From contig CALFNC010000103.1 in NCBI GenBank assembly GCA_937902605.1, positions 1-11,562 of the forward strand: a stretch of 11,562 bases of DNA, read 5' to 3'. The DNA comes from an uncultured Acidobacteriota bacterium. GTDB taxonomy: Bacteria > Acidobacteriota > Thermoanaerobaculia > UBA5066. Of this stretch, positions 1,302-11,562 are shown piece by piece. Position 1 is the stretch's first letter. The number at the start of each line of letters is the position of its first letter. Below the pieces are notes generated by a model, which saw nothing but the letters and a program-made list of their open reading frames with translations, was not told the DNA's origin and made no database searches. The translations under genes and the position numbers were made by a program.

Positions 1302-2177
1302 TCACCGCCCGCCAGCGAGGAGCAGGATCCGGACCGAGAAGGCGATCCAGGCGAGGACGAGCGTCCCGAGGGCGGCGAGGACGCCCCCCCTCATCCTCCC
1401 GGTAGAGGCGCGGAGGGCTCCGAGGAGGGTGACGAGAAGGAGCGGCACGCCCCAGCCGAGGGCGACGGGAAGGTCGACGAGCATCCCCTGCAGCCCGAGC
1501 AGCGCCCAGGGCCCCAGGAGGACGCCGCGCCCCGGGGGCGGGGGACCGAGCGGAAGGGAAAGCAAGCCGGCGGCTCCGACCGAGACGAGCGTCGCGAGGG
1601 TAGCCGGACGGGTGCCCGGCCAGACGAGCCGAGCGTGCTCGATCGTGAAGAGAAGGACGAGGATCGAGACCGTCCCCGCGTGATGGAGCGCGACCGCCCC
1701 GAGGCTCTCGTGCACCCCTCCCAGGACGAAGGCCGCGAGACCTTGTCCCACGACGGGGATCGACGCCATCAGGCCGCGCCAGACGTCGCCGGCGGCCCTG
1801 GCCTCGGCATCCCCGCGGAGGACGAAGCCCCCGAGCAGCACGAGGAGGAGGAGCGGCACCAGCGCGACCGCGCGCCACCAGGCGCCAAGGCCGAGCTGGC
1901 CCTCGGTCCTCCGCCATGCCACCTGGACGACGTGGATGAGCGTCGCTCCAAGGACAGCGAAGCTGGACCACACGTGCAAGCCTCGGAGGAACGACCCTAA
2001 AGGGACAGCCCCGACGATCGTCTCGAGGCTCAGGAGCGGAGAAACCGGGTCGTAGTGCGGGACGAGGGCGGCGCCGCTGAGGAGCGAGACGGCAAGAAAT
2101 GAGTACGCCAGCTTGCCGAAGTTCCCCGAGGGCCGCGCGGGAGCCTCCGCCTCGGGGGTCAGATCCGCGCGATCCAC
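1302..2177 (-). CDS. Cytochrome b of a bc/b6f-like quinol oxidoreductase
   Basis: Membrane diheme cytochrome b, about 291 residues from the GTG at 2177. That start has GAGGGG about seven bases upstream and overlaps the Rieske gene by 19 bases; the only upstream ATG (2330) lies deep inside the Rieske gene. Helix-rich throughout. The first pair of haem ligands is H68 and H82 (HX13H, helix B). The second is H166 and H181 (HX14H, helix D), the spacing typical of b6 rather than mitochondrial cytochrome b. The first helix and loop carry the usual YxP and G-x3-R-x2-H pattern (Y42-P44, G61-H68). Residues 189-291 add about three helices, resembling subunit IV fused to b6. Where the quinol-oxidation PEWY motif is expected there is GPWA (222-225), followed by LGLQG. 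It lies between the Rieske and multiheme c genes, so it should pass electrons from quinol to those partners. There is no cytochrome c1 gene. The family call is firm; the start is less certain. Confidence 0.88.
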
Positions 2178-2560
2178 CGGTCGCCCCTCTTCTCGAGGAC
2201 CGCGCGAGCTAGCGGCCGCCTGGCCGGTCCCGACGTCACTCGCCCGTCGGCGTCGAACCGGCTCCCGTGACAGGGACACGCGAACCCGCCAGCGGGGCGC
2301 GGCGCGACCCGGCAGCTGAGGTGCGTGCACTCGAGGGAGAGAGCCTTCGGGACGGACGGCGTCCCCGTCAGGAAGAGCCCGCCGGAGGCAAACCCCTCAC
2401 CGGTCGAGAGGCGCGCGAGGAGGTCCGGGGTCAGCTCGACCTCCCGGCTCTCTCCCCGCGCCGGCCGGAGGGACTTCCAGAGGAGCCCGACCCCGAGGGC
2501 CGCGAGCCCGATTCCCATCCAGCGCCAGACTTCGCCGAGGAAGTCGCGCCGGGAGCTCAT
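2159..2560 (-). CDS. Rieske [2Fe-2S] protein with Tat-type N-terminus
   Basis: Small Rieske iron-sulfur protein, 133 residues, expected to take electrons from quinol at the outer face of the membrane. The N-terminus reads SSRRDFLG (twin arginine at residues 4-5), followed by a hydrophobic stretch at about 14-28. This is a Tat signal that would also act as the membrane anchor. The cluster motifs are both present: CTHLSC at 78-83 and CPCHGS at 95-100. By analogy with bc1 proteins the ligands are C78, H80, C95 and H98, with C83 and C97 as the disulfide pair. The serine in CTHLSC replaces the more usual glycine. The ATG at 2560 overlaps the TGA of the upstream activator gene (ATGA), and the 3' end overlaps the cytochrome b start. 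It is shorter than most bc1 Rieske proteins (about 180-200 residues), close to minimal b6f-like or arsenite-oxidase-like forms, so the loops around the core are reduced. Confidence 0.93.
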
Positions 2561-3969
2561 TCGATGCCGAGTTCGTGCATCCGCCGCCAGAGCGTGCTCC
2601 GGCTGATGCCGAGGGCCTTCGCGGCGAGGCTCCGGTTCCACCGGTTGAACGAGAGCGCCTCGACAATCCGCTTCCGGTCGGGATCGGCCTCGTCGGCGAC
2701 CAGGGCCGGACTCGACGCTGGGAACGCCCCGGCTCCAGTCACCTCCAGGCTCAGCTCCGGCGGCAGGTCCTCGATCTGGATCGTCTGGCCCGTGCAAAGC
2801 GTGACGGCATATTCGAGGGTGTTCTCCAATTCGCGGACGTTTCCGGGCCAGGGGTAGCGCTCCAGCACCGCGAGGGTGTCTTGAGAGATGCGGAGAGACC
2901 GCCCCGCTCTACCGCTGATGTGCGCGAGGAGGTGGGGGGCGATGAGGGCGATGTCCTCGGGCCGCTCGCGGAGCGGCGGGATCCGGATCGGGACGACGCG
3001 GAGCCGGTAGTAGAGGTCCTCGCGGAACCGTCCGTGCGCGATTGCGTCCTGAAGGTCGGCGTTGGTGGCAGCGATGATCCGCGCGTCGACGGTGCGGGAG
3101 ATGCTGTCGCCCACCCGCTCGAACTTCCTCTCTTGGATGACGCGCAGGAGCTTGGCCTGGAGGTGGACCGGCATGTCGCCGATCTCGTCGAGGAAAATCG
3201 ACCCCCCTTTCGCCAGCTCGAAGCGCCCGACGCGGTCCTTCACCGCCCCGGTGAATGCTCCGCGGACGTGCCCGAACAGCTCGCTCTCGAGCAGCTCGCC
3301 GGGAAGGGCAGCACAGTTCACGGCAATCAGGGGCCCCGCGCTCCGCGGGGAGTGGGCGTGCAGGGCCCGGGCGAGGACCTCCTTCCCGGTGCCGCTCTCC
3401 CCTGTGATCAGGACGGTCGCGTCGCTCCGGCTGAGCGACTCGACGAGGTGAACGATCCGGAGCATCGCCGGAGAGCGGGCGATCAGCCCGTGCGAGGCGA
3501 TGGCTGTCTGGAGGAAGCTGACGTCGTCCTCCGCGGGCCGGAGGACGATCAGGTAGTAGGCCCTCGGATCGCAATGGTTCGAGACGTACCGCGGGATGAC
3601 GGCCGCCGTCAGCGAGACGAGCCGGGCGCTCCCCTCCCCACAGCGAAGGAATGCCCGGCGCCCTTCTTCGCGCCGTCCCTTCGCGAGGGAGTCACGGAGC
3701 GAGTCCGAGGGACCGAAGAGCTTCGCTCCGACCAGGTCCTCGATCGGCTTGCCGATCGCTTCGGCCGCCGCCCCCTTGTACGTGATTTCGTCGATCGTCT
3801 GGCTGACCCGGATGATCTTGAAGTCCTCGTCCAGGACGATCAACGTCCGGCCGAGGGCCTCGAAGACCGTTTCCAGCGTCCCGAAGCCGGGGTTTCCTTC
3901 CATCACCGACGGCAGGGCGTGTTCGCTCGATTCCATCAGGCCCCCTACGCGTCCGGTCTCGTCGCTCAT
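2557..3969 (-). CDS. PAS-containing sigma-54-dependent transcriptional activator (Fis-type HTH)
   Basis: Bacterial enhancer-binding protein of 470 residues that would use ATP hydrolysis to open sigma-54 RNA polymerase promoters. Domains in order: a PAS-like sensor at about 30-145; an AAA+ domain at about 160-385; a Fis-type helix-turn-helix at about 430-470 ending in [18 protein letters not shown]. The AAA+ motifs are intact: Walker A GESGTGKE (190-197), the sigma-54 contact loop GAFTGA (237-242), Walker B IFLDE (258-262), FREDLYYRL (315-323) and [10 protein letters not shown] (374-383). There is no phosphoacceptor receiver domain, so the signal is probably sensed directly by the PAS region (ligand, redox or haem unknown). 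The ATG at 3969 has GGAG immediately before it, which is too close; ATG 3936 (residue 12) with AGGGGG four bases upstream is a credible alternative. The gene is first in the operon and overlaps the Rieske start. Geobacter BccR, a sigma-54 activator beside the cbcBA bc-type cytochrome genes, is a plausible functional parallel but not shown to be an orthologue. Confidence 0.94.
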
Positions 3970-4009
3970 CTCCGTCTACCGCGCCCCGCGACAAGTCTAA
4001 TGCAGGTGT

Positions 4010-4038
4010 CGGGACTCCTTTCGCCCGTCCCGGGACTC
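4010..4038. repeat. Two direct repeats CGGGACTC with 21-base spacing
   Basis: CGGGACTC occurs at 4010-4017 and again at 4031-4038. The two copies start exactly 21 bases apart, about two helical turns, and each is followed by a TTT-containing stretch. The second copy is part of a perfect ten-base palindrome, GTCCCGGGAC, at 4027-4036. They lie 41-69 bases upstream of the activator start at 3969. The phasing would suit a regulator binding one face of DNA. No function is proven, and short GC-rich repeats can arise by chance. Confidence 0.4.
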
Positions 4039-4289
4039 TTTGCGATCTCCTCGTGGAGCTCCACTTAGGCTGGCTCGAGGTGATGGCGAAAACCGTCCGG
4101 TTCGCCGTCGAGAAAGGGGACTTTCACCCCGGGGTCGACCCCGTGCAGTTCGCGCACGATATGTACGGTGTAATGCTCGCCTTCCACCACGCCTCCCGCC
4201 TCCTCGCGGACGAGAAAGCGGAAGCGCGCGCCCGCAATTCCTTCGAGGGCCTTCTGGCGGCCGCCCGGCCTCCCGGGCAGCCAGCCTAA
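4026..4289 (+). pseudogene. C-terminal remnant of a TetR-family regulator
   Basis: The open frame from about 4026 to the TAA at 4287-4289 encodes a recognisable TetR C-terminal ligand/dimer domain. It begins RPGTLCDLLVELHLGW, continues with AVEKGDFHPGVDPVQFAHDMYG and ends with a LLADEKAEARARNSFEGLL helix; this pattern of helices and the G-x-F-x-P-x-V-D turn is common in TetR C-terminal domains. The N-terminal helix-turn-helix (normally the first 50 residues of about 200) is absent. The DNA where it should be is occupied by the opposite-strand activator gene and its leader. The only start codons are GTG 4053 and ATG 4083, which would give at most 78 residues, without DNA binding. A rare TTA codon sits in the frame. 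It is most likely the leftover of a deletion or rearrangement, or an assembly join. Family call moderately firm; pseudogene status inferred. Confidence 0.68.
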
Positions 4290-4309
4290 CTTTCTGGCGC
4301 GGACGGGTA

Positions 4310-4350
4310 GGGCCAAAGGCCCGAAGGGGGACCCGGCCCGGGTCCCCCTT
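4310..4350. terminator. Tandem hairpins between convergent genes, probable bidirectional terminator
   Basis: The first hairpin is GGGCC-AAA-GGCCC (4310-4322). The second is a perfect 12-base inverted repeat, 4324-4335 pairing with 4339-4350 around a GCC loop (arm AAGGGGGACCCG). They fill the gap between the TetR remnant on the plus strand (ends 4289) and the S9 peptidase on the minus strand (ends 4401). The arm ends are AA/TT, but no longer T-run follows on either strand. Intrinsic termination is therefore plausible rather than certain; transcript-end protection is another possibility. Confidence 0.65.
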
Positions 4351-4400
4351 ATCCAGAATGGCCGCCCTCGGCGAGGCGCGAAGCGACCTCGCGTAGCGAC

Positions 4401-6458
4401 TTATTGCAGCCACTGGTCCAGCCACGCCCGGACCGTGTCGTGCCATAGGAGCGAGTTCTGGGGTTTCAGCACCCAGTGGTTCTCGTCGGGGAAGACGAGG
4501 AGCTTCGAGGGGATCCCCTTCCGCTGGAGCGCCGTGAACGTCGACAGCCCCTGCGTGTAGACGACCCGGAAGTCCTTCATTCCGTGGACGACGAGGGTCG
4601 GCGTCTTCCAGTTCTTCACGAGGTCGACCGGGTTGTGCTTCGCGTAGCCGGCCGGGTTCTCCCACGGGGTGCCGCCGTGCTCCCACTCGGGGAACCAGAG
4701 CTCCTCGGTATCAAAGTAGGCCATTCGCTCGTCCAGGTTCCCGTCGTGAATGACGAGACATTTGAAGCGGTCGGTCTTCCCCGCGATCCAATTGATCATG
4801 TAGCCGCCATACGACGCGCCGAGCGCCCCGACCCGGGTCCCGTCGAGAAACGGCCACGTGGCCAGCGCGTGGTCGAGGCCCTTCATCAGGTCCTCGTACG
4901 GCGCGCCGCCCCAGTCGCCGTTGATCGCGTCGGTGAAGACCTGCCCGTAGCCGGTCGACCCGTGGAAATCGACCATGACCGCGGCATAACCCGCCCCTGC
5001 ATAGAACTGCGGGTTCCAGCGGTAATGGAAGTCGTTGCCGAAAGAGCCCTGCGGCCCGCCGTGGATCAGGAATGCAACCGGGTATTTCTTCGCCGGGTCG
5101 AATCCGACGGGCCGGACCAGGTAACCATGGACGGTGTCGCCCTTCGCTCCTTTGAACGAAAAGCGCTCCGGCTGACCGAACCGGATCGCGGCGAGGTCGG
5201 CGTCGTTCAGGCCGGTCACTTTCTCGACAGGGCCACCTGCCGCCGAGACGGTGAAGAGCTCGACCGGGCTCGTCAAGGTGTGGCGGCCGAAGACGAGCTT
5301 GTCTCCGCCCGCAAGCTGCGGCGAGACGACCGTCCCCTCGCCGACGACGATCCGGGCCTTGCCCGTCGCCGCGTCGACGGCGAAGAGGGCCTTCTGGCCC
5401 AGGTGCTCGGCCGTCGTAAACAGGGTCTTCCCGTCCCACGACCAGAAGAGGTCGGAAGGCGACCGGTCGCCGGTCTTCGTGTCGTCGGCCCGCAGCGTGA
5501 ACTTCCGCTCCGCGCCGGAGAGGCCGTCGCGCAGGACGATCTCGAAGCGGTCGGCCTCGTAGCCGGGGCGGCTCATCGCCAGGTAGGCCAGCGTTTTCCC
5601 GTCCGGGGAGAAGCGCGGCTGGGTGTCCCAGGCCGGGTTGGTCGTCAGCTTTTTCGGCGCCGCCGACCCGTCCGCCGGTACCGCGAAGAGGTCGAAGTTC
5701 GTCGACCATGCCTCCTGCCGGCCCCCGTCGCGCGCCGCGAAGACGACCGTCTTCCCGTCGGGGGAAATCGCCGTCTCGTCGAGGTCACCGAAGGGGCGGG
5801 ACGGCGCGTCGGCGTCCATCGCCGGCATCAGATCGCGGACGGCGCCGCCCGGGAGGTACACGACGAAGAGGTGGTTCCGGGTACCGTCGGCCCAGGCGTC
5901 CCAATGACGGACGAAGAGGCTGTCGAAAAGCATCCCGGTGCTCTTCGCCTTCGCCTTCGCGTCGAGGGCTTTCTTCGTCTCGTCGGGCGTCTTGCCGGGA
6001 AGGACCGCCATCGCGACCAGGAGGGACCGGCCGTCACGGAATGGCTCGAATGCGTCGACGTCGAGCGGCTGGGTGGTCACCCGGACCGCCTCGCCCCCTT
6101 CCAGAGGGAGCTGCCAGATCTGCTGTGACCCGCTCCGCGCCGACAGGAAGTAGAGGCTCTTTCCGTCGGGCGACCAGCGGGGGCTCGAGTCGTTCGACTC
6201 CCCGGATGTCAGCTGCCGGGCCGCCTTCGAGGCCAGGTCGGCGAGCCAGATGCTGGTCCGCCCCTTGTTCGCCTCCATGTCGGTCACCCGGACCGTGAAG
6301 GCGACCGACCGGCCGTCGGGTGAGACCCGCGGGTCGGCGATCCGCTTCATCGCCAGCATGTCGTGGATCGAGAACGGGTGCGGCTCGACGGCCGGGGCCG
6401 GCGCCGCCTGGAGGACGACGAGGAGCGTGAGGGCAAGGCGAAGTCTTGGAATCCGCAT
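4401..6458 (-). CDS. Exported S9-family peptidase (prolyl oligopeptidase / acylaminoacyl-peptidase-like)
   Basis: Serine peptidase that cleaves oligopeptides, 685 residues, the usual size for the family. A signal peptide covers about residues 1-23 (hydrophobic core 8-20, then APA), so it is exported to the periplasm or beyond. The N-terminal half is a WD40-like beta propeller with repeated SPDGK/SPDGR blades, the first at 46-50 and another at 96-100, with further copies before about residue 350. The C-terminal half is an alpha/beta hydrolase with the complete triad: S549 in GASYGG (547-552), D629 in HGMKDFRV and H661 in DENHW. Residues HGGPQGS, about 80 residues before the serine, form the usual oxyanion-side strand and turn. 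The gene is single, divergent from the metallophosphoesterase gene across 36 bases, and followed by a hairpin terminator. No good Shine-Dalgarno precedes ATG 6458. Role is probably peptide scavenging; substrate preference cannot be read from the sequence. Confidence 0.95.
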   Translation of the reverse strand: MRIPRLRLALTLLVVLQAAPAPAVEPHPFSIHDMLAMKRIADPRVSPDGRSVAFTVRVTDMEANKGRTSIWLADLASKAARQLTSGESNDSSPRWSPDGKSLYFLSARSGSQQIWQLPLEGGEAVRVTTQPLDVDAFEPFRDGRSLLVAMAVLPGKTPDETKKALDAKAKAKSTGMLFDSLFVRHWDAWADGTRNHLFVVYLPGGAVRDLMPAMDADAPSRPFGDLDETAISPDGKTVVFAARDGGRQEAWSTNFDLFAVPADGSAAPKKLTTNPAWDTQPRFSPDGKTLAYLAMSRPGYEADRFEIVLRDGLSGAERKFTLRADDTKTGDRSPSDLFWSWDGKTLFTTAEHLGQKALFAVDAATGKARIVVGEGTVVSPQLAGGDKLVFGRHTLTSPVELFTVSAAGGPVEKVTGLNDADLAAIRFGQPERFSFKGAKGDTVHGYLVRPVGFDPAKKYPVAFLIHGGPQGSFGNDFHYRWNPQFYAGAGYAAVMVDFHGSTGYGQVFTDAINGDWGGAPYEDLMKGLDHALATWPFLDGTRVGALGASYGGYMINWIAGKTDRFKCLVIHDGNLDERMAYFDTEELWFPEWEHGGTPWENPAGYAKHNPVDLVKNWKTPTLVVHGMKDFRVVYTQGLSTFTALQRKGIPSKLLVFPDENHWVLKPQNSLLWHDTVRAWLDQWLQ

Positions 6459-6494: not shown

Positions 6495-7616
6495 ATGGGC
6501 ACCGCCGCGCGATTTGCGCTGTTCCTGACGATCGTCCTCGGGATCTGGACCGGCTTCCACGTCTGGGCCTGGAGCCGACTGTCGGCCTTCCCGGCGTTCA
6601 CGGCGGTCCCCCACCCGGCCCGCCTCGCGGTCTTCAGCCTCCTCTGGCTCAGCTACCCGCTCGGCCGGACCCTTCTCCACAACGGCTGGAAGGTCCCCGG
6701 CGAGGCGTTGGAGATGGCCGGCGCCGTCTGGATGGGCGTCCTCTTCATCCTCTGTTCCTGGCTCCTCGTAGCGGACCTCGTCACCGGCTTCGGCTTCCTC
6801 CTCCCTCACCACGTCCTGGCCGCCCGGAAGCTCGCGGTGATCGTCGGCCTCGTCCTATCGATCTTCGCGGTCTTCCAGGGTCTTCGCGGCCCTCGGGTGG
6901 TCCGGTATGAGGCGAAGATCCAAGGGCTGGCGCCGTCGTTCGACGGCCTCCGGATCGTCCAGATCTCGGACCTCCACCTCGGGAGCCTCCTGGGACGGCG
7001 CTGGCTGGAGGCGCGTGTCGAGCAGGTCGAAGCGCTCCGTCCCGACCTCCTCTTCGTCACGGGCGACCTGGTCGACAGCGAGGTGGCGCCGGTCCGGCCC
7101 CTCGTTCCGCTCCTGAGGCGCCTTTCGGCCCCGCTCGGCGTCTGGGGCGTGACGGGGAACCACGAGTTCTACGCCGGCATAGAGGCATCCACCGCCCTTT
7201 ACGCCGACGCGGGGATCCGACTGCTCCGCGACTCGTGGGCCGAGGTTCGCCCCGGCCTGGTCCTCGTCGGGGTCGACGACCTCTCGGCCAGGCGGCAGCT
7301 CGGCCTGAACGGCGACCCGGTGGCGCGGGCGTTCCAGGGGGCTCCGGACGGAACCAGGATCTTCCTTTCCCACTCGCCGCTCCGCGTGAAGGACGCGGCC
7401 CGCGCGGGGGCGAGCCTGATGCTCTCGGGCCACACGCACGCCGGCCAGATCTGGCCCTTCACCTACCTCTGCGAGATCCCCTACCCGCACCAGGCCGGGC
7501 TTTACCGGGAGGGAAACCTCCAGATGATCGTCCATCGCGGAACCGGAACCTGGGGCCCGCCGATGCGCCTTTTTCTCCCTTCCGAGATCGTCGAGGTGAC
7601 GCTCCGGAGGGGCTGA
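6495..7616 (+). CDS. Membrane-anchored metallophosphoesterase (YkuE-like)
   Basis: Calcineurin-like phosphoesterase with two metal ions, 373 residues. The N-terminal 130 residues hold about four membrane helices (roughly 7-27, 41-60, 75-98 and 112-130). The catalytic domain follows and carries the whole set of family motifs: DLH (159-161), GDLVD (190-194), GNHE (221-224), SH (292-293) and GHTHAGQ (312-318). GHTHAGQ and the membrane segment point to the YkuE/YaeI-type group, which in characterised members acts on phosphorylated lipid or envelope substrates. The actual substrate here is unknown. ATG 6495 was chosen because the hydrophobic N-terminus starts there; frame-open sequence upstream to 6363 overlaps the divergent peptidase gene and encodes only charged filler. 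It is the first gene of a plus-strand series with the glycosyltransferase 65 bases downstream, so a linked envelope role is reasonable but inferred. Confidence 0.93.
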   Translation: MGTAARFALFLTIVLGIWTGFHVWAWSRLSAFPAFTAVPHPARLAVFSLLWLSYPLGRTLLHNGWKVPGEALEMAGAVWMGVLFILCSWLLVADLVTGFGFLLPHHVLAARKLAVIVGLVLSIFAVFQGLRGPRVVRYEAKIQGLAPSFDGLRIVQISDLHLGSLLGRRWLEARVEQVEALRPDLLFVTGDLVDSEVAPVRPLVPLLRRLSAPLGVWGVTGNHEFYAGIEASTALYADAGIRLLRDSWAEVRPGLVLVGVDDLSARRQLGLNGDPVARAFQGAPDGTRIFLSHSPLRVKDAARAGASLMLSGHTHAGQIWPFTYLCEIPYPHQAGLYREGNLQMIVHRGTGTWGPPMRLFLPSEIVEVTLRRG

Positions 7617-11518: not shown

Positions 11519-11562
11519 AGATCGGAAGAGCGTCGTGTAGGGAAAGAGTGTAGATCTCGGTG
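11519..11562. other. Illumina TruSeq P5-side adapter (artefact)
   Basis: Not genomic. AGATCGGAAGAGCGTCGTGT and the bases that follow match the reverse complement of the TruSeq universal (P5) adapter. The junction with genomic sequence is at 11518/11519. Peptides such as [10 protein letters not shown] in frames that cross this point are translated adapter. Confidence 0.98.

Follow-up and report, generated by a model that had tools for sequence, protein, structure and literature searches.

Electron bifurcation is classically illustrated by the cytochrome bc complexes, in which the quinol site is strongly conserved. The 11,562-nt stretch of DNA analyzed here (the window), from an uncultured member of the Acidobacteriota, encodes a Rieske protein and a cytochrome b beside a multihaem cytochrome c. 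Four genes lie on the minus strand in the order regulator, Rieske, cytochrome b and multihaem cytochrome c, with frames that overlap or nearly touch. They consist of a sigma-54 activator gene with a Fis-type HTH (2557-3969, minus strand), a gene for a Rieske [2Fe-2S] protein of 133 aa (2159-2560, minus), a gene for a cytochrome b of 291 aa with a GTG start (1302-2177, minus) and an ExtM-like multihaem cytochrome c gene that is incomplete at its 3' end (46-1300, minus). The Rieske ATG and the regulator stop overlap by 4 bases, cytochrome b starts (GTG, 2177) within the Rieske frame, and the end of cytochrome b (1302) is nearly contiguous with the multihaem ATG at 1300. Searches of Pfam and NCBIfam identified the Rieske protein, a cytochrome b/b6 and haem repeats of the c7 type, as well as a sigma-54 activator whose PAS match is weak. 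The true start of the regulator may be near residue 12 (3936) rather than at 3969. No sigma-54 promoter was seen upstream of the operon; weak matches lie at 6991 and 7321 (0.69 expected), and a script scan for this promoter returned zero in the window. Next to the operon, we observed the remnant of a TetR-type regulator (4053-4289, plus strand), whose 72 residues are 85% identical to positions 124-195 of a 207-aa protein of the same-genus genome G135. In G135 a kinase gene sits between the two, and its start resembles residues 1-7 of the window regulator (6/7 residues), which suggests that the kinase gene was deleted.

Both ends of the window carry sequence that we take to be Illumina adapter: positions 1-45, of which 12-45 were matched in sequence comparison, and positions 11519-11562 at the opposite contig end, also by sequence match. 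The adapter accounts for the stop at 23 and for the final six or seven residues of the multihaem ORF, which are artefacts. A further remnant is found at 4087-4104 of locus L109, and such remnants at contig ends create false ORF ends. The missing end of the multihaem gene is present elsewhere in the source genome (G000), where contig C158 starts with the counterpart of residues 456-553 of a full-length relative, P0117. Next on C158 come a TyrA/chorismate-mutase-like gene and, on the opposite strand, a CGGC-domain gene; a PsrA-type molybdoenzyme gene (2415-4628) lies 2.1 kb past the multihaem 3' end, and a further gene starts at the contig end. The TyrA-like gene is likewise directly 3' of the multihaem gene in G135, which supports the continuity of the window (contig C103) and C158, two separate contigs. 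The earlier note had raised the possibility of a cytochrome c1 or f gene directly past position 46; this TyrA-like gene is what occupies that place on C158 and in G135.

The Rieske protein has the ligand motifs CTHLSC...CPCHGS and matches PF00355 with 33.7 bits (cut-off 20.3). Its N-terminus matches a TAT signal model with 17.4 bits (cut-off 16.7), indicating a TAT-like signal or anchor. The ligands are kept in all 15 Rieske proteins compared, with the variants CPHLGC (L046), CPCHAS (L044/L045) and CACHNG (L048). The cytochrome b matches PF00033 with 36.2 bits (cut-off 27.2) and presents two histidine pairs, H68/H82 (HX13H) and H166/H181 (HX14H); these haem ligands are found in all 50 aligned rows. 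PF00032, the subunit-IV part, is not matched. We aligned the protein by profile-profile comparison to 20 canonical cytochromes b, selected by script for GYxLPW (18 from class loci and two from the source genome), and the alignment covered columns 19-280 (99.2%, E = 1.2e-19). Three of the 21 class loci (L018-L038) were omitted from this canonical set: L028 and L031 (GYSLVYEQ) and L034 (GYLLPW, no PEWY in frame). The C-terminal half alone aligned to the canonical C-terminal halves with E = 2.6e-5 (74.7%), against E = 0.17 for a control with the canonical N-terminal halves, and to two ExtQ sequences with E = 0.0024 (probability 12%). Hydropathy displays seven main hydrophobic peaks, consistent with 4 + 3 helices. 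By these alignments, the window cytochrome b joins the b6 and subunit-IV parts in one chain, despite the lack of a PF00032 match. The Pfam matches, the histidine pairs and the profile alignment thus bear out the earlier description of a 133-residue Rieske protein and a fused b6/subunit IV-like cytochrome b with HX13H and HX14H pairs. Using a profile of 44 relatives, the best solved relative is cytochrome b6 of the b6f complex (4.2e-17), with only the N-terminal part aligned. Cysteine is absent from the protein, as it is from 67 of 116 homologues, which indicates that there is no covalently bound extra haem.

The multihaem part of the window has 418 full codons before the adapter and ten haem motifs (nine CX2CH and one CX4CH). 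It aligns with residues 1-417 of P0117, a protein of 553 aa with 11 motifs that is 95% identical. Far above chance, all 11 motifs keep both cysteines, and ten of them the histidine, in 36/36 aligned relatives; the histidine of the eleventh motif is kept in at least 90% of aligned relatives. The claim of at least ten haem motifs therefore stands, but we rejected the label "decahaem", since the window gene is cut by the contig end and P0117 has 11 motifs. A plasmid search with P0117 yielded zero matches. The N-terminus of the split form is hydrophobic, with a peak at residue 14, and is followed by conserved R24, E25 and R28; this hydropathy suggests a probable membrane anchor. The protein had been described as secreted; it is more probably periplasmic and anchored in the membrane.

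We further found that the two cytochromes are often encoded as a single chain of ~900-930 aa, with cytochrome b first and the multihaem part second. This fused form is abundant, and its named sources include Terracidiphilus and other Acidobacteriota. Among the listed matches of at least 850 aa to a fused query, 111/112 contain 11 CX2CH motifs and one longer motif; 108 of the best 120 of 1630 matches carry the two histidine pairs together with nine or more CX2CH. One in-frame TGA was reported for the fused gene of G875, yet the matching stretch at 7200-9878 of L124 is without a stop. Since the two parts occur as single chains, the multihaem protein appears to be a stoichiometric subunit, and the fusions provide strong evidence that cytochrome b and the multihaem protein form one complex.

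We searched for the same gene order in 148 genomes of the class, nine of which, including the source genome, have a cytochrome b match at E 1e-30 or better (38-100% identity). The order regulator-Rieske-b-multihaem, which the earlier note proposed to look for in other genomes, is kept in seven of the other eight, counting G143, whose contig begins inside the regulator, and G144, whose multihaem match stops within the gene near the contig end. The remaining genome, G141, has the fused form with a Rieske gene ~4.5 kb off and no regulator match. Named records provided 15 loci titled Acidobacteria or Thermoanaerobaculia, five of which are contigs already counted in the class genomes. Rieske, b and multihaem genes are in a row in L056 and L061, and b-multihaem is accompanied by a divergent Rieske gene in L054. 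In seven loci the multihaem gene has no cytochrome b match (L051, L055, L057, L058, L062, L063 and L064), the contigs of L055 and L064 starting at or near the multihaem gene.

The bc1 complex has cytochrome c1 (PF02167), whereas c1 was over the cut-off in 0/12 genomes of the window's family, with one weak match, of 17.8 bits, in G141. This model detects classical c1 only, as it exceeded the cut-off in just one of 14 control genomes; within that range, the result upholds the view that a multihaem cytochrome replaces c1. The source genome has three further Rieske/b operons, on contigs C312, C433 and C423. On C312 (L047), genes for a Rieske protein, a cytochrome b and a 5-haem cytochrome c form one run with a downstream nitrous oxide reductase (nos propeller) gene, and this complex apparently feeds the N2O reductase. 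The C433 operon has an 8-haem cytochrome c. With no c1 over the cut-off in the source genome, multihaem partners seem to be the rule among its four Rieske/b operons. On C423 (L048, 1670-4891), a canonical cytochrome b is itself fused to a multihaem cytochrome c with nine CX2CH motifs and adjoins its own Rieske gene; this fusion is independent of the fusion in the window branch.

We then reconstructed a tree of cytochromes b from the N-terminal domain of 57 rows, without a Geobacter, Kuenenia or bc1 reference and with five flagged long branches. The tree separates the window family (16 split, 15 fused and 3 divergent rows) from 21 canonical and two ExtP rows with support of 100/100. All 15 fused rows fall together (98/91) beside the split rows, with L046 adjacent, and the ExtP rows cluster with the source-genome C312 and C433 proteins (99/93) among the canonical rows. 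In this tree, the window cytochrome b belongs to a separate, well-supported branch. We know of no biochemistry for this branch.

The branch also differs at the quinol site. The GYxLPW segment belongs to the Qo region of cytochrome b and is generally regarded as a shared feature. Where most canonical proteins have GYxLPW, the window protein reads GFVLRGD; by set, the canonical proteins present GYLLPW(N/D) and the window family GF(V/L)LRGD. GFxx(R/K)(G/A)D fits 115/116 cytochrome b homologues and 101/120 listed matches to the fused query, some of which are fragments. Both histidine pairs are matched by 224 proteins, including P0315 by chance; a slightly wider GFxx-type pattern occurs in 213 of them, and the ten exceptions have GYILKGD, GFLLRGN or GFIIK(G/A)D in that place. 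GYxLPW is absent from the expected place in the 223 listed relatives with both histidine pairs, and GYxLP is present in three of 236 proteins, at another place in the chain. Two class cytochromes b, L028 and L031, have GYSLVYEQLSFW where most read GYLLPW, another departure at the same place, which indicates that the proline-tryptophan of GYxLPW is not universal. At the place of PEWY, the window protein has GPWA and the consensus GPWY, and the C312 and C433 cytochromes b have APWY. The available excerpt of PMC9162462 reports a correlation of redox potential and type of quinone with the second PEWY residue. Since the GYxLPW segment is altered throughout the branch, bifurcation at the Qo site is not assured. 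The replacement by a GFx(L/I)(R/K)(G/A)D-type sequence across the branch would also fit a complex that runs in reverse or does not bifurcate, with electrons from periplasmic sulfur oxidation passing through the haem string and Rieske/b to quinone. We rate this alternative as rather unlikely: a Rieske cluster with the usual ligand set fits quinol oxidation, and the Rieske/b operon beside the nitrous oxide reductase gene implies that reducing directions are in use in the source genome.

The genes that recur near the operon bear on the fate of the electrons. At L041, PsrA matches the Thermus polysulfide reductase (PDB 2vpw) with 710 bits over its length and is accompanied by PsrB, NrfD/PsrC, two YeeE/YedE genes (one with a rhodanese domain) and a FadL-type porin; the PsrA-type protein of C158 is 72% identical to it. 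A molybdoenzyme gene lies near the multihaem gene in L041, L042, L055, L056, L057, L061 and L062. None was found among the four L058 neighbours tested, and in L051 and L058 the multihaem gene has no sulfur partners beside it. The multihaem and PsrA genes are on one contig, ~20-55 kb apart, in G135, G142, G143 and G145 and on different contigs in G141 and G144, and no PsrA match was found in G146 and G147. Near PsrABC, G135 and G142 have an eight-haem gene and a second YeeE pair, and the eight-haem gene of G135 (L110) matches the octahaem tetrathionate reductase family over the cut-off. We also note that the eight-haem cytochrome genes of L110 (11989-13554) and L114 (10511-12079), near PsrABC, are found with a b561-like gene and the YeeE pair.

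We compared the distribution of PsrA across genomes. PsrA is present in 9/11 class genomes with a window-type multihaem gene and in 20/137 others (P = 5.7e-6), a difference that kinship confounds. These 11 derive from 14/148 class genomes with a multihaem match at 1e-20, after removal of the distant matches (32-36%) of G120, G124 and G136; those of G120 and G136 are the ExtM of an Ext-type cluster. When the three were kept, the proportions were 11/14 and 18/134 (P = 6.7e-7). Within the family alone, they were 9/11 and 1/3 (P = 0.18, or P = 0.066 counting an Ext-type genome). In a sample of 396 genomes of the phylum, PsrA was present in 5/5 genomes with a match to the fused protein relative to 24/396 overall (P = 5.4e-7), the five being not fully independent: they include G143 by its split protein only, two share one genus and two are in the window's family. 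The figure of 5/396 is a lower bound, as two candidates were scored per genome and the source genome and G139, both with the multihaem gene, were missed. Three of the five come from two other families and have a Rieske gene immediately 5' of the fused gene, with PsrA less than 4 kb away. A relative of the window regulator is found near PsrA in G135 (62%) and G750 (56%), which suggests that the operon and PsrA may belong to one regulon, although sigma-54 activators are alike in general.

Taken together, PsrABC and YeeE/YedE favour a sulfur or selenium role over extracellular electron transfer. The linked sulfur transporters and Psr-type enzymes would also suit the reverse direction; according to the excerpt of PMC6896113, some Epsilonproteobacterial Psr copies have been proposed to work in the direction of sulfide oxidation, which is considered unlikely in Deferribacter. 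The earlier note had tied the operon to extracellular electron transfer, with quinol oxidation wired to a multihaem protein that sends electrons toward outer-membrane conduits. In its favour, homologues of the multihaem protein are found in the Geobacter Ext cluster, and Cbc6 is counted, in partial descriptions, among the inner-membrane clusters with a role in extracellular electron transfer. Moreover, an Ext cluster with an ExtI porin is present in class genome G120, and the start of a similar one is found on source-genome contig C153. Against it, the MtrB/PioB porin (PF11854) was found in 0/12 family genomes, a weak negative as no control genome reached the cut-off, no second multihaem gene was detected by motif count beside the operon in L039-L043 and L045, and the recurring neighbours are sulfur enzymes. 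An Mtr-type link is thus not supported, and we consider extracellular electron transfer, by this or another route, improbable.

Our preferred reading, which we hold to be reasonably probable, is a membrane quinol:cytochrome c oxidoreductase with an 11-haem ExtM-like cytochrome in place of c1/f and a link to sulfur or selenium. The 11-haem periplasmic cytochrome, attached to the membrane by its N-terminal helix, would take the place of c1/f, and menaquinol would be oxidised at the rebuilt positive-side site. One electron would reduce the Rieske cluster and then the c haem closest to it, and the second would travel via both b haems to a quinone on the negative side, in a Q-cycle-like manner. The haem string may then pass electrons to a periplasmic sulfur or selenium compound, or reduce it itself, and the quinone-linked PsrABC may act in the same pathway via the common quinone pool. 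One point against the sulfur link is that PsrABC has its own quinone-linked NrfD subunit and needs no donor complex. Beyond a quinol:multihaem oxidoreductase, we infer the substrate, direction, bifurcation and mechanism.

A bolder proposal is that the deep and unrecognised branch with its rebuilt quinol site (GFxLRGD for GYxLPW and GPWY for PEWY) constitutes a dedicated sulfur/selenium-linked quinone:multihaem oxidoreductase that may skip the Q-cycle or run in reverse, with the haem wire as a core subunit. We advance it tentatively, and with slightly less confidence than we would otherwise have had because L028 and L031 also depart from GYxLPW. The branch keeps the haem ligands and the Rieske protein, has a charged R/K-G-D-type segment and is often fused to 11-12 haems, so that it could show, as an experiment of nature, which features bifurcation depends on. 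For ExtM-type cytochromes, it also suggests a role with sulfur or selenium, beyond extracellular electron transfer alone.

Finally, we compared the operon to known systems. ExtM and ExtP are the best NCBIfam matches of the window proteins, which could mean that the Ext complex of Geobacter merely recurs here in a different phylum. Yet ExtM (cut-off 800) scores 176.8 bits for the incomplete window gene and 213.5 for P0117, and ExtP (cut-off 290) scores 46.6 for the window cytochrome b and 49.1 for P0001. A separate Ext-type cluster in class genome G120 (L112) is over the cut-offs for ExtM (901.5 bits) and ExtN (469.4), with ExtI at 288.5, and under them for ExtP (223.1; cut-off 290) and ExtQ (141.6; cut-off 150); it includes further multihaem genes. 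Its ExtP retains GYxLP and falls among the canonical cytochromes b, outside the window branch, in our tree, which is without Geobacter. On C153 (L109), the similar cluster extends up to the third haem motif of its last gene, whose start equals that of the ExtM-like gene of G136. Since an Ext-type cluster is found separately in the class and in the source genome, the window operon represents a different complex, and the source genome probably holds both. Given the scores, the tree and this separate cluster, we rejected identity with the Geobacter Ext complex as very improbable. In a sample from the phylum of G151, ExtM-family matches were found in 105/377 genomes, none over the cut-off.

The Ext-type clusters provided two side observations. 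L109 and L112 present a second PsrA/PsrB pair and a cytochrome b561 upstream, which are absent from the available excerpts of the Geobacter descriptions. In addition, NCBIfam NF040968 (FeS_ExtO) scores the multihaem ExtN-like protein at 473 bits and misses the adjacent Rieske protein; from these matches, its ExtO iron-sulfur label looks misassigned.

The CbcMNOPQR (Cbc6) complex is presumably the Geobacter ExtMNOPQS (GSU2930-2935), with matching subunits too. In the excerpts available, a Geobacter cluster of Rieske, b and 10- and 12-haem cytochromes is a candidate for quinol oxidation (PMC2825233, PMC5877670), and a tetrahaem partner is described in other delta-Proteobacteria (PMC2825233). Ext shares with the window a Rieske protein (14.1 kDa), a b6-like cytochrome b and a 12-haem ExtM-type cytochrome c, and has as its own features separate ExtP and ExtQ, the extra cytochromes ExtN and ExtS and a porin, as partially described (PMC5877670, PMC2825233, PMC10989804, PMC11434368). 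In contrast, the window encodes one fused 7-helix b, a single multihaem c and a sigma-54 regulator. The suggestion that the variant is distinct from the Geobacter complexes thus holds for the separate cytochrome b branch and the changed quinol-site segment; the Rieske protein is not the reason, since Geobacter Ext, as excerpted, already pairs one with multihaem cytochromes c.

Other systems have a similar composition. Geobacter CbcVWX (Cbc3) and PcmABCDEFG are likened to the window by description, in excerpts of PMC10989804, sharing a Rieske protein, b-type cytochromes and multihaem or other periplasmic c-type cytochromes (four-haem in Pcm). The Kuenenia complexes Kustd1480-1485 and Kuste4569-4574 likewise have a b6-like core with a hexa- or octahaem cytochrome c in place of f, but have separate b6 and subunit IV and NAD(P) oxidoreductase subunits, and the excerpt of PMC12954380 does not mention an ExtM-like protein. 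The Methanoperedens cluster pairs Rieske/cytochrome b with pentahaem cytochromes but, according to the excerpt of PMC4683180, has a c1/f-type cytochrome too, is archaeal and is linked to nitrate reduction. The b6f complex (PDB 1vf5 and others), the closest solved relative by profile, shares HX13H/HX14H and splits b6 and subunit IV, which are a single chain in the window. We did not find the branch described in the titles or abstract openings of the papers listed by our searches, to which this result is confined, nor an account of this complex in the Acidobacteria literature on Rieske and multihaem proteins. These partial descriptions of Geobacter Ext/Cbc6 and CbcVWX, Kuenenia and Methanoperedens indicate that the composition of Rieske/b with a multihaem cytochrome c is already known; what is new here is the cytochrome b branch and its genomic setting.
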